Assembly: GCA_026421215.1 (NCBI GenBank)
Contig: JAPKBN010000001.1
Location: forward strand, 62,001-126,000
Direction of reading: 5' to 3'
Source: Dehalococcoidia bacterium
GTDB lineage: Bacteria; Chloroflexota; Dehalococcoidia; Lucifugimonadales; Lucifugimonadaceae
Length of the DNA: 64,000 bases
Part shown: positions 29,745 through 34,736 of the stretch, piece after piece
Layout of the letters: each line of letters begins with the position of its first letter
Numbering within the stretch: position 1 is the stretch's first letter
Notes under the pieces: model-generated
Seen by the model: the letters and a program-made list of their open reading frames with translations, nothing else
Told to the model about the DNA's origin: nothing
The model's database searches: none
Program-made: the position numbers and the translations under genes

Positions 29745-29775
29745 CGTTTCCCTCTTAGAAAACTGAACATTCGTC

Positions 29776-29932
29776 CGACCCGGTGCCCCCGATATCATGT
29801 CAGGGGAGAATAGGGAAGGCGGTGAAAAGCCGCTGCGGTAGCGCCACTGTGAATCGGGAATCAACCCCCGAAAGCCAGGAGACCTGCCAGGTCAGACGAC
29901 GGACTGCTCCTCGCTCACCAGGGGGTCCGTCG
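29776..29932 (+). ncRNA. cobalamin riboswitch
   Basis: A leader containing the B12-box core in order: GGTGCC (29782), AATAGGGAAGGCGGTGAAAA (29809-29828), GCGCCACTGTGAA (29841), and GCCAGGAGACCTGCC (29874-29888), the most conserved element. After the aptamer CGACGGAC (29897-29904) can pair with GTCCGTCG (29925-29932) as an expression-platform stem, with no T-run, so control is probably at translation. It lies about 150 bases before btuC. The rest of the 618-base gap (29465-29770) shows no gene. Confidence 0.93.
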
Positions 29933-30082: not shown

Positions 30083-31159
30083 ATGGCGCTCGGAATTGTG
30101 ACCCGACTCAGACCACCCCGTGAAGCCGCGCTCGGCACACGCCTGATTGCGGGCGGCGGCGTCCTGACCACTCTATTGATAGCGATAATCCTGTTGTCAC
30201 TCAGCACCGGACCGCTGGACATACCGGTGTCGCATGTTGTGTCAATAATCGTGGAACCCACCGGACTACATCTGGCCGATTACAACCACACCGAGGAGAT
30301 GGTTGTCGAGCGGATTCGCATGCCGCGAATCGTCGTCGGGGCGCTTGTCGGCATGGCCCTCGGGGTTGCCGGTGCCGCTATGCAGGCCCTGTTCCGTAAC
30401 CCACTCGCTGATCCGGGCACTATCGGCGTTGCGTCCGGAGGAGCGGCCGCGGCTGTGATCGCCATCGCCACCGGCGCATCATCGTTGTTCTTCCTCGCCC
30501 TGCCCTTGTTTGCGCTGGGCGGTGCAATCGGCACGGCCTTTCTTGTGTATGCGATCGCGATCGCAAGCGGCCGATTTTCCGTAGCCACGCTGATCCTAGC
30601 CGGTGTGGCTGTGAGCGCTTTCATGGGCGCGCTAATCACGCTCGTCATCATCGCCCAGCCAGAACAGGGCACCCTTAGGGGCATACTCTTCTGGCTGGCC
30701 GGCGGGCTCGACTCTCGATCCTGGGACCACGTGTGGTTATCCGGACCACTGATCCTCGTGGGCGGTGGAGTGATCGTCGCGTTCGCCAGAGATCTCAACC
30801 TACTGATGATGGGCGAAGACGATGCGAGGTCAATGGGCGTCAACGTGCGTGTGGTCCGGCCAATGTTGCTTACCGCGGCTTCCCTGATCACCGGCGTCGC
30901 CGTGGCGGTCAGCGGGATGATCGCATTCGTCGGTTTGATCGTCCCACACATGCTCCGGCTGGTGTTTGGACCTGACAACCGGGTCCTTATACCCCTCAGC
31001 GCCCTCGGCGGAGCGGTATTTGTTGTGCTGGCAGATGAGATCGCACGAACCGTCATTTCACCGGCCGAGTTACGTGTAGGGATCATCACCAGCTTCATCG
31101 GCGCGCCCTTCTTTTTGTTCCTGCTACTCCGACACAGTAGACGTGTGTCGTCATTGTGA
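30083..31159 (+). CDS. btuC: cobalamin ABC transporter permease
   Basis: A 358-residue FecCD/BtuC-type permease with about ten membrane segments. Diagnostic pieces are RMPRIVVGALVGMALGVAGAAMQALFRNPLADP (about 73-105, here split over motif RNPLADP), GFFVGLIVPHMLR-like AFVGLIVPHMLRLVFGPDNR and a C-terminal LRVGIITSFIGAPFFLFLL. The family moves cobalamin or iron chelates; the riboswitch and the CobO genes select corrinoids. Its TGA overlaps a GTG that opens the next ORF, but the better start of btuF is 51 bases further on. Confidence 0.9.
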   Translation: MALGIVTRLRPPREAALGTRLIAGGGVLTTLLIAIILLSLSTGPLDIPVSHVVSIIVEPTGLHLADYNHTEEMVVERIRMPRIVVGALVGMALGVAGAAMQALFRNPLADPGTIGVASGGAAAAVIAIATGASSLFFLALPLFALGGAIGTAFLVYAIAIASGRFSVATLILAGVAVSAFMGALITLVIIAQPEQGTLRGILFWLAGGLDSRSWDHVWLSGPLILVGGGVIVAFARDLNLLMMGEDDARSMGVNVRVVRPMLLTAASLITGVAVAVSGMIAFVGLIVPHMLRLVFGPDNRVLIPLSALGGAVFVVLADEIARTVISPAELRVGIITSFIGAPFFLFLLLRHSRRVSSL

Positions 31160-31209
31160 ACCGGCTAATTAAATTGCAAGCGAACAGGCCTAACACCGGA
31201 GGAAAGACT

Positions 31210-32268
31210 GTGAAAAACGGATCGCCGAACAGCCCTGACCAGCCCTGGTTCGGAGAGAGAGCATTGGCGGTTATCGCCGTGTTGCTCACTGCCATACTTG
31301 TGTTGGCAGCCTGTCGATCCGACGCCGACGTTGAAGGCGCGCTGGTCGGCGTTGGAGGAATCATCGATCCGACCAATCTTGGTTGGCCGCGTGATGTAAC
31401 CGGGCTGAACGGCCCCGTGACGATACTCGAAAAGCCGGAGCGGATAGTGACGATCTCACTCGGCCACGACGAGGTCACCTACGCATTGGTGCCACGGAAT
31501 CGTGTGGTCGCCACCAACATTTACACCCAGAGTCCCGAGCAGTCCAACGTGGCTCACCTTGCAGCGGGTCTCCCGGAGATCACATCGGACGCTGAGGTCA
31601 TCGTCGCCCAGTCACCGGACATCGTCATCGCTTCGCCGTTCACATCGCTTGAACTTATCAAAGCGCTGGAAAACGTAGGTATGGTTGTGTTGCAGACGAA
31701 CTTGCACAACGATGCTGACGGACGGCATCAGGACATCATGCTGTTGGGCTACGCGTACGGCGAAGAGGGGCGCGCTGTGGAAGTAGTTGAAGAGGTTGAA
31801 AAGCGTGAGGCCAGCCTCAGAGCCCTATGGGAGAGTAAACCTGAAGTTGAGCGCGTACGGGTACTTTCGGCGACTCTGTACGGGGACTCGCTCTACACTG
31901 CCGGTGCCGGATCCACCGAAGCCGAGATCATCAACATCGCAGGCGGGATAAACGTGGCGGCAGAAGCGGGTTTGGAGAACAATCCTGTTATCAGTTACGA
32001 GAGCCTGATCGCCATGGACCCGGAGGTGATCTTCATACCGCAACCGGTGGAGTTCGGCGGTGAAGAGTTCCGGGACGCCATGCTCGCCAATCCAATGCTG
32101 GCAAGCGTCGCTGCCATCAGGGACGGCAGGGTGTTTATGGCCGATCCCAAATACTTTACGACGCTATCGTTCTGGAATCTCAGGGGGGCGGAAGAACTGG
32201 CCCGGGATCTGTGGCCCGAGGAACTCGCGGACACGACCTTTGGACCGTTCAGTTTTCCTTCTGAATAG
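31210..32268 (+). CDS. btuF: cobalamin-binding lipoprotein (ABC transporter)
   Basis: A 352-residue periplasmic binding protein anchored as a lipoprotein. From GTG 31210 (GGAGG 7 bases upstream) the N-terminus has a hydrophobic stretch ending LVLAAC, with Cys35. The type III fold is shown by RIVTISLGHDEVTYAL, EVIVAQSPDIVIASPF and MDPEVIFIPQPVEFGG. A GTG at 31156 overlapping the permease stop is an alternative start but gives an odd n-region. It delivers corrinoid to BtuC/BtuD. Confidence 0.87.
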   Translation: MKNGSPNSPDQPWFGERALAVIAVLLTAILVLAACRSDADVEGALVGVGGIIDPTNLGWPRDVTGLNGPVTILEKPERIVTISLGHDEVTYALVPRNRVVATNIYTQSPEQSNVAHLAAGLPEITSDAEVIVAQSPDIVIASPFTSLELIKALENVGMVVLQTNLHNDADGRHQDIMLLGYAYGEEGRAVEVVEEVEKREASLRALWESKPEVERVRVLSATLYGDSLYTAGAGSTEAEIINIAGGINVAAEAGLENNPVISYESLIAMDPEVIFIPQPVEFGGEEFRDAMLANPMLASVAAIRDGRVFMADPKYFTTLSFWNLRGAEELARDLWPEELADTTFGPFSFPSE

Positions 32269-32297: not shown

Positions 32298-33614
32298 ATG
32301 ACGGACATTGTAGAGCGCACGGAACGACGACTCGAAGCACGCGATGTTATATACGAGGTCGATGCAGCGCGCCTGCTTGACCAGGTCGATTTTAATGCTG
32401 ACAAAGGCGAGTTAGTAGGCCTGGTAGGCCCGAATGGCGCCGGTAAGACCACGCTTCTCCGAACCATCGGAGGCCTTCTCAAGGCACGTGAGGGCGCAGT
32501 ACTGCTGGACGGCGACGAAGTAAGCCGGATGGACACAAGTCAACGCGCGAAATCCATCGCACAGGTCGCCCAGCTTGCTCCACTGGCGCAGGGATTTACC
32601 GCCCTCGAGGTGGTCATGATGGGCCGCTATCCGCATATGGGGCGGCTGCAATCGGAACGCGCTGTGGATCGTTACGCGGTGCGGCGGGCGCTTGATACGG
32701 CAGGAGCGGGCGCCCTGGCCGATCGTACGCTGGAGACATTGTCCGGAGGCGAGCGTCAGGGTGTGTTCGTGGCACGGGCGCTGGCTCAAGAGCCACGCTT
32801 GCTACTACTGGACGAACCCACTTCCAACCTGGACATCAATCACCAGGCTCGATTTTTCCAGATCATTCGCGGGCTGGTGGATGATGGTATGACGGCGGTG
32901 GCGGCGATCCATGACCTCTCGTTGGCGGCACGTTTTTGCGATCGATTGGTGTTGCTCAACAAAGGCGTCGTAGTGGCTGAAGGGCTCCCTCGAGACGTGC
33001 TTACCCCAAAAAATATCGGGGCCGCTTTTGGGGTGAGGGTCATCGTGTCTTCAGATCCGGCGAGCGGCGTGCTTGGCATATCCGTCATGGAGGCGGGTTC
33101 GGTCGGGAATAGTGCCGGCGCTGGGACGCGCGTCCATGTTGTTTGCGGTGGCGGGACGGGCGCTCGATTAATGTACAGACTGTGCGAAGCCGGGTTCGTC
33201 GTGACGGCGGGGCCGCTCGCAAACGGCGACACGGACCGGTCCGCGGCCGAGTCGCTAGGTGTCGAATTCGTGCCTGTGCAGGCATTCGGAGATATCGACT
33301 CCGTAGCCCACAACAAACACCTCCGGTTAATTCGAGAGAGTGAAATCGCCGTGCTCAGCGATGTGGCGTTTGGATCGGGCAACGTGCGCTCACTCGAGGC
33401 GCTCGTAGAAGCATCTCTGATCGTCCTCGCAACCATGGAACCTATCGCCGGCCGTGACTTCACAGACGGCGATGCGACGACTTTGTTTGATCAGCTATCT
33501 CCGGTCGCCGCATGGTCTGATCTGGAAGCACTTGTGACTGGATTATCTGGCCTCGCCCAGAATAATAAAGGCACCCAGGAAATCGCTAACAGTTCTCGGG
33601 AGAATCAACAATGA
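32298..33614 (+). CDS. btuD: cobalamin ABC transporter ATPase with C-terminal domain
   Basis: A 438-residue protein. Residues 1-255 are a BtuD/FecE-type ATPase with Walker A GPNGAGKTT (44-52), signature LSGGERQ (148-154), Walker B LLLLDEP (168-174) and His205. Residues 277-420 form an extra Rossmann-like domain (HVVCGGGTGARLMYRL at 280-295, then TAGPLANGDTD and EIAVLSDVAFGSGNVR). From memory, a longer BtuD with a similar extra domain occurs in haloarchaea. Its role is unknown. The stop codon overlaps the cobO ATG by 4 bases. Confidence 0.88.
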   Translation: MTDIVERTERRLEARDVIYEVDAARLLDQVDFNADKGELVGLVGPNGAGKTTLLRTIGGLLKAREGAVLLDGDEVSRMDTSQRAKSIAQVAQLAPLAQGFTALEVVMMGRYPHMGRLQSERAVDRYAVRRALDTAGAGALADRTLETLSGGERQGVFVARALAQEPRLLLLDEPTSNLDINHQARFFQIIRGLVDDGMTAVAAIHDLSLAARFCDRLVLLNKGVVVAEGLPRDVLTPKNIGAAFGVRVIVSSDPASGVLGISVMEAGSVGNSAGAGTRVHVVCGGGTGARLMYRLCEAGFVVTAGPLANGDTDRSAAESLGVEFVPVQAFGDIDSVAHNKHLRLIRESEIAVLSDVAFGSGNVRSLEALVEASLIVLATMEPIAGRDFTDGDATTLFDQLSPVAAWSDLEALVTGLSGLAQNNKGTQEIANSSRENQQ

Positions 33615-34147
33615 TCGATTCACAGCCTCCGAAGGGCCTTGTGATCATCCATACGGGCGACGGCAAGGGAAAGACGACGGCAGCGCTGGGTCTAATGGTA
33701 CGAGCGTGGGGGCAGGGCAAAAGCGTGAAAATGTTCCAGTTCCTGAAGCACACAGGCGCACGATTTGGTGAACACCGGGCGGCCGAAAAGGTCGGCATTT
33801 CGATCGAATCACGAGGCGACGGATTCACCTGGCTGTCAAAGGACATGGACGAGACGACGGCCATTGCGGTCGACCAATGGGCGCACTGCAAAGCGGCGAT
33901 TGAGGCCGGCGAAACCGACCTAATCATTCTTGATGAGGCCACATACCCGGTCACATACGGCTGGCTAGACGTAGACGAGGTAGCAAATACGATCACCAAC
34001 CGTCCGTCCCATGTACACGTAGTTGTCACGGGGCGTGACGCCCACGAGAAACTTGTCGCCATCGCTGATGTGGTGACGGAGATGGAAGACATCAAGCATC
34101 CCTACCGAGACCAGGGCATCAAAGCGCAGCCAGGATTGGATTTCTAA
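33611..34147 (+). CDS. cobO: cob(I)yrinic acid a,c-diamide adenosyltransferase
   Basis: Transfers the adenosyl group of ATP to Co(I) of a corrinoid, forming the Co-C bond of adenosylcobalamin precursors. The 178-residue protein has the CobA/CobO-type P-loop TGDGKGKTTAALGL (15-28), the ILDEATYPVTYGWLDVDEV box that replaces a Walker B, and VTGRDAHEKLVAIADVVTEM near the end. These match CobO rather than the PduO or EutT types. ATG overlaps the btuD stop (ATGA). Confidence 0.93.
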   Translation: MIDSQPPKGLVIIHTGDGKGKTTAALGLMVRAWGQGKSVKMFQFLKHTGARFGEHRAAEKVGISIESRGDGFTWLSKDMDETTAIAVDQWAHCKAAIEAGETDLIILDEATYPVTYGWLDVDEVANTITNRPSHVHVVVTGRDAHEKLVAIADVVTEMEDIKHPYRDQGIKAQPGLDF

Positions 34148-34149
34148 CT

Positions 34150-34704
34150 ATGCCCGACGAATTTCCAAGAGACGATCCCGGAGTCACGCCAGATGGCCCA
34201 GAAAAATCAGCGCCGGCGCGAAAGGGAATGCTGGTTGTTTATCACGGCCCCGGCGCAACCAAAGAAATCGCAGGACTCGGCGTGCTGTTCCGTGCCAACG
34301 GACGAGGGCTGCCGGTCCGCCACATGAGCTTCAAGCAGGCTCAGAAAGCCGGACCTTCAGGCGACGATCTGGCCCTTGAAAAACTGGGCATCCCGTCACA
34401 CGTTATTGATGCACCAACCGAGGATGCCGCCCTCGAACTCTGGAGCAAGGCGGTCCGCCACGTGTCGATCGTTCAGGAGGGAGTGCTGGTACTTGAAGGA
34501 TTGCTTGATGCGATAGCTGAAGGTTGGTTATCCGGAGCACAGGTTTCCGAAACCCTCTCCGGCAAAGATTCATTCCTTCACGTGATCGTCACTGGCAGCA
34601 AGGCGCCGTCTGAACTGATGGAATCGGCAGACCTTATCAGCAACATGCGAGCCATCAAACAGCGTGGATCAGATGCGCCGGTCATCGCAGGCATCGATTA
34701 CTGA
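34150..34704 (+). CDS. CobO-like paralogue lacking the P-loop
   Basis: A 184-residue relative of the preceding CobO, with a 25-residue acidic/Pro N-terminal extension. The CobO P-loop becomes YHGPGATKEIAGLGVL (31-46), with no GxGKT Lys-Thr; the DEATY box reads VLVLEGLLDAIAEGWLSG (113-130). Conserved elsewhere are LHVIVTGSKAPSELMESADL and the C-terminal short Asp-Tyr end. It cannot bind ATP in the normal way, so it is probably a regulatory or corrinoid-binding partner, or a paralogue with new chemistry. Two bases separate it from cobO. Confidence 0.8.
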   Translation: MPDEFPRDDPGVTPDGPEKSAPARKGMLVVYHGPGATKEIAGLGVLFRANGRGLPVRHMSFKQAQKAGPSGDDLALEKLGIPSHVIDAPTEDAALELWSKAVRHVSIVQEGVLVLEGLLDAIAEGWLSGAQVSETLSGKDSFLHVIVTGSKAPSELMESADLISNMRAIKQRGSDAPVIAGIDY

Positions 34705-34736
34705 ATGCGAACCGATCCCGGAAACGAATCCGTGCA

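Follow-up and report, generated by a model that had tools for sequence, protein, structure and literature searches.

The CobO-type corrinoid adenosyltransferases (CobO/CobA/BtuR family, PF02572; 1G5R, 1G5T, 1G64 and 4HUT) are known as one-component homodimers, CobA being one of them. In CobA, the Lys-Thr pair of the P-loop and a Walker-B acid handle Mg-ATP, and Phe91 and Trp93 drive off the lower ligand, leading to four-coordinate cob(II)alamin. We know of no obligate heteromeric CobO, and none was found in a search of open-licence papers. A dead paralogue that is kept with a live enzyme is described in trypanosomatids, where the AdoMetDC prozyme of Trypanosoma brucei is reported to heterodimerise with the enzyme and to make it active (PMC6221367). 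Here we analyzed a 64,000-nucleotide stretch of a Dehalococcoidia genome (contig JAPKBN010000001.1; "the window"), in which an intact cobO is followed by a second CobO-like gene. The product of this second gene is homologous to the CobO/CobA/BtuR family over residues 25-184, and the likeness extends to its predicted fold and to its setting in a B12 operon, but it lacks the Walker-A Thr, the residues equivalent to CobA Lys39, Tyr131 and His182, the Walker-B Glu and the Phe91/Trp93 loop, Arg161 is missing in half of the orthologues, and it has a conserved N-terminus of its own. It resembles the prozymes in that a dead paralogue is kept with a live enzyme, although the enzyme and the pathway are different and the partnership at this locus is a putative one.

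All the features of the locus are on the plus strand. A cobalamin riboswitch (RF00174, positions 29764-29905, 78.5 bits, E 1.1e-17, full-length match to the model) lies ahead of the operon, as originally predicted, and one is also found upstream of the same operon at the loci of five other genus members. It is followed by btuC, encoding the vitamin B12 ABC transporter permease (30083-31159; FecCD, PF01032, 318 bits), whose top NCBIfam match is BtuC, under the cut-off of that model; by a btuF-like gene that overlaps btuC by 4 bases and encodes the corrinoid-binding protein of the transporter (31156-32268; PF01497, 79 bits); and by btuD, encoding the corrinoid ABC transporter ATPase (32298-33614), which matches PRK09536 (NF007082) over residues 13-389 with 354 bits, i.e., below the cut-off of 537. 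The C-terminal extension of BtuD (33087-33614, about 175 aa) has no Pfam match and is mostly covered by the PRK09536 model; the extension is apparently common to locus L081, and BtuD is shorter in the sister genus (L078-L080). The next gene is cobO (33611-34147; 178 aa), which encodes an intact ATP:corrinoid adenosyltransferase (PF02572, 208 bits, E 1.2e-61): its PRK05986 and TIGR00708 scores exceed the cut-offs, and the Walker A motif (GDGKGKTT), the DEATY box and the residues that are invariant among its relatives are present. Only two bases (CT) separate the TAA stop of cobO from the ATG of the last gene, the paralogue (34150-34704; 184 aa), which matches PF02572 with 78.7 bits (E 8.2e-22; gathering cut-off 25.7 bits) and is 28% identical to the neighbouring CobO over 173 aa (pairwise E 3e-19). 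Both the tandem and the two-base gap had been predicted, and both open reading frames were found as expected. With the order riboswitch-btuC-btuF-btuD-cobO-paralogue on one strand, the paralogue is probably co-expressed with CobO from a B12-riboswitch operon.

In order to locate the residues lost, the paralogues were aligned with the 1G5R chain and thereby mapped onto Salmonella enterica CobA, and 26 CobO proteins were compared. The prediction had been that the paralogue aligns with CobO along its length, which is true in general, but the segment of about 10 residues that carries Phe91 and Trp93, both invariant in the 26 CobOs, is deleted in all eight orthologues, as are the two residues that follow His182. 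The positions of CobA Lys39, Thr42, Glu128, Thr130, Tyr131 and His182 are changed or lost in 8/8 orthologues, that of Asp127 is changed in most of them and that of Arg161 in half. In the 26 CobOs the catalytic positions lost show little or no variation, with the exception of Thr42, which is Ser in some. The Walker-B DE.TY box is replaced by LEGLLD or similar, so that the predicted loss of the DEATY box was borne out, and the Walker A pattern GxGKGK[ST]T is not found in any orthologue, the stretch reading HGPGATKE in the window (residues 32-39, 34243-34266), HGDGAGKE in several other genus members, or a close variant. As expected from these changes, the paralogue falls below the curated cut-offs of TIGR00708 (62.2 vs 167.75 bits) and PRK05986 (71.6 vs 185 bits). 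Since the residues that handle Mg-ATP and the Phe91/Trp93 pair are lost, catalysis by the CobO mechanism is very unlikely to judge from the alignment, and the multiple losses shared by the orthologues, none of which has a GKT, agree with the non-catalytic character that had been proposed. A P-loop change is on record in Corynebacterium amycolatum, where a Ser change in CobO (S44F), together with a cobK mutation, accompanies the loss of cobamide production (PMC11774034).

The description of the paralogue as P-loop-less, in contrast, was too strong. The Lys-Thr pair is indeed absent, but the Walker lysine is retained (Lys38, aligned with CobA Lys41), and the Thr is replaced by a Glu (Glu39, at the position of CobA Thr42) that is invariant, as are His32, Gly33 and Gly35, in the eight orthologues. 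The CobA positions kept, which belong to the fold core, are Gly36, Gly38, Lys41, Arg51, Gly54, Trp109, Asp172 and Lys181. The former P-loop stretch (residues 25-52) is among the most conserved parts of the protein, with 19 of 28 positions invariant, and it is preceded by a paralogue-specific segment of 24 residues (34150-34221; EFPRxDPxxTPxxPxxxxPxR), 10 of which are invariant. The conservation of the former P-loop, the invariant His32, Lys38 and Glu39, and the retention of Arg48 (CobA Arg51) and Lys170 (CobA Lys181) are what would be seen if the paralogue had become a binder of a nucleotide or phosphate, in which Lys38 and Glu39 hold the ligand without the usual Mg and which serves another catalysis or as an energy sensor. 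We consider this unlikely. The Walker-B Glu is gone, and in the clade of the window even the Gly that precedes the Walker Lys is lost, so that nucleotide binding does not seem to be tightly kept; furthermore, no gap in the pathway was identified that such a protein might fill, and a cobU is found in those assemblies that include the tail of the operon. A substitute for CobU was rejected also on the ground that the paralogue has no CobU-family match.

The fold of CobO is nevertheless predicted to be retained. The AlphaFold2 model of the paralogue has a pLDDT of 80, the low values being mainly at residues 1-21 (the N-terminus is of low confidence, pLDDT ~43) and at the C-terminus. Its top four matches in the PDB were CobA chains (1g64/1g5r; E 4e-13 to 4e-11, TM 0.71-0.82), followed by RecA (3e-5) and then KaiC.

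The distribution of the paralogue was analyzed in eight metagenome-assembled genomes of one genus, the window's own being 92% complete. Orthologues were found in all of them, the other seven being 55-95% identical to the copy in the window, and each with an intact open reading frame of 184-187 aa. The prediction that the paralogue neighbours cobO was checked and is true in the seven genomes in which cobO is assembled, always with two bases between the genes. No orthologue was detected in the rest of the family (68 genomes), in the order (250 genomes in all) or in a sample of 400 genomes of the phylum: the best-match scores fall from at least 321 bits within the genus to at most 122 bits outside it, and the outside matches that were inspected are CobOs with intact P-loops. 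A scan for close relatives in about 85,000 species genomes returned genus members only. The sister genus g10 (L078-L080) has the riboswitch-btuCFD-cobO run but not the paralogue. Because it is absent outside the genus in these searches, the paralogue looks like a genus-level innovation. In the tree, all the paralogues cluster together (100/100), the stem branch leading to them measuring 1.71 changes per column, and with a midpoint root they stand apart from all CobOs; the AU test (p 0.355) does not reject that they arose by duplication from the genus's own cobO. A mobile or viral origin was discarded, as viral contigs and PHROGs gave no match and the plasmid matches were all below 60% identity and, among the matches listed, mostly annotated as cobO.

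Whether a protein with such a long stem and no catalytic residues is simply a decaying, functionless duplicate of cobO, retained by chance, was assessed from the selection acting on it. Pairwise dN/dS was 0.14-0.28 for the paralogue vs 0.03-0.17 for cobO, although the pairwise dS of distant pairs is near saturation, so that the close pairs carry the argument. Within the three-genome clade of the window, dN/dS was 0.15-0.25 and pN/pS 0.16-0.28, the pairs differing by 10-25 non-synonymous changes (about 412 sites) and 21-30 synonymous ones (about 139 sites; Fisher p 3e-7 to 7e-7). The paralogue therefore evolves faster than CobO, with several variable stretches, as a decaying copy would; however, purifying selection is significant even among the closest relatives (p below 1e-6), the open reading frame is intact in 8/8 genomes, the position is constant wherever cobO is assembled, and the N-terminus that is specific to the paralogue is conserved. 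Conservation in eight genomes and the dN/dS values rule out a pseudogene or local decay, and chance retention deserves hardly any credence. Both signs of a pseudogene named at the outset were looked for, and neither was found: no relative has a GxGKT loop and dN/dS is far from 1. The paralogue has thus been kept, as was first proposed.

The genomes were also searched for the pathway that the paralogue might serve. While the paralogue is present in all eight genomes, cobT was found in four of them and cobU in two. In the four genus members with cobT this gene continues the operon, accompanied by cobS and cobQ in the genomes in which these two could be read, and in two of the four (G004 and G005) cobU lies farther downstream. 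Neither cobT nor cobU was found in the assemblies of the window clade and of one further genome, which are 79-92% complete. When loci L071-L077 were compared with positions 34705-34736 of the window, the window clade and G002 were without the cobT tail (cobS, cobQ, cobU). This suggests that lower-ligand assembly has been lost within the genus, with the proviso that the assemblies are incomplete. Since the paralogue is kept where cobT and cobU are undetected, it seems to be tied to uptake and adenosylation rather than to nucleotide-loop assembly, and a dependence on the latter is disfavoured. A PduO-type adenosyltransferase was detected in none of the eight genomes, CobO being the only adenosyltransferase family found, and methylmalonyl-CoA mutase had no match in any of them; hence, a simpler context through a second adenosyltransferase family or this mutase was set aside. 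The class II ribonucleotide reductase NrdJ is present in 8/8 genomes (in the window genome at G000:C88:2621-4324, outside the window), and all eight also have B12-binding-domain proteins. From the absence of the PduO type and of the mutase and the presence of the reductase in all the genomes, CobO is probably the only source of AdoCbl in the genus and the reductase likely its user.

With NrdJ as a possible client, the operon shared with a B12 importer and a riboswitch, and retention in lineages in which cobT and cobU are undetected, the paralogue might be a stand-alone corrinoid or AdoCbl carrier or chaperone with a remodelled pocket, which takes up B12 just after its import or adenosylation and hands it to CobO or to a B12 enzyme such as the reductase. 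There are precedents of this kind: human ATR is described as acting also as an AdoCbl chaperone (PMC8633584), and non-catalytic roles are possible for Escherichia coli BtuR (PMC11841063). The chaperone precedent, however, belongs to the unrelated PduO-type family, and methylmalonyl-CoA mutase is absent from the genus. Furthermore, with the Phe91/Trp93 segment deleted in 8/8 orthologues and His182 and the next two residues lost, a CobA-like corrinoid pocket is unlikely and corrinoid binding in the CobA manner doubtful on the alignment, so that we regard a carrier as rather unlikely. The riboswitch operon with its importer and the same pattern of retention would also be compatible with a sensor of the corrinoid or nucleotide state whose targets would be genes or the BtuCD importer instead of CobO, but no DNA-binding or signalling domain was detected, the protein consisting only of the CobO-like domain and a short N-terminus of low confidence, and such a sensor is quite improbable.

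Of the three roles that had been proposed, i.e., a corrinoid carrier, a CobO subunit or a sensor, the second is best supported, by linkage and predicted fold, whereas the carrier is weakened by the loop deletion and the sensor has no specific support. That the paralogue is a non-catalytic, prozyme-like protein partner of CobO has, in our estimation, an even chance of being correct. Following duplication of cobO, one copy would have lost catalysis and been retained as the partner of the other. It would keep the CobO fold without the residues that face Mg-ATP and the corrinoid, and pair with the catalytic CobO, which would supply the active site, while the paralogue would provide a structural, capping or regulatory half. 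As CobA is homodimeric, such a hetero-pair would be natural. The paralogue might stabilise CobO, tune how CobO responds to the status of nucleotides or B12, or serve to dock it at the BtuCD importer or at a B12 user, e.g., the ribonucleotide reductase, and its conserved N-terminus could cap the CobO active site. Adjacency, conservation, residue losses, predicted fold and retention where cobT and cobU are undetected make a heteromer that affects CobO the most likely interpretation, but adjacency by itself is also compatible with an independent protein that requires the same regulation, and the restriction to one genus in the searches, the faster evolution than CobO and the variable stretches count against a partner. 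The stronger version, in which CobO is an obligate heteromeric corrinoid adenosyltransferase that works only with the dead paralogue as its cap or regulatory half in trans, linking importer to adenosylation, is a tentative possibility that we hold to be less than probable. CobO itself shows 18 genus-specific changes, which do not decide the matter. Its N-terminus was also considered as a complement to the extension of the paralogue, but CobO N-termini vary widely among relatives and are not diagnostic.

If a partner of CobO is indeed encoded here, the use of B12 would have an additional, new level of control or delivery, next to what is the sole adenosyltransferase family found in an organism with the B12-dependent ribonucleotide reductase, and the paralogue would be a clean test case for the origin of a pseudoenzyme by gene duplication. 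Annotation pipelines may call it a second CobO, and redundancy would then be wrongly counted. Other CobO-family arrangements with more than one unit differ from this one. The CobO-family model PRK07413 (NF005647, 382 aa) describes a protein of roughly double the normal length, which the paralogue matches in two regions, with 40 bits vs a cut-off of 426, whereas two separate genes are present here. In another Chloroflexota family (L087 and L088), an additional cobO gene lies about 3 kb away from the main copy, but these second CobOs have an intact Walker A (GLGKGKTT) and a DEFKYP or DEFTYP box, and thus are not orthologues of the paralogue. In both of them (L087:2256-2915 and L088:5371-6054) the Phe91/Trp93 positions are replaced (GDGCTARSKD, GNGCTRRSKD), and they may represent another CobO variant.
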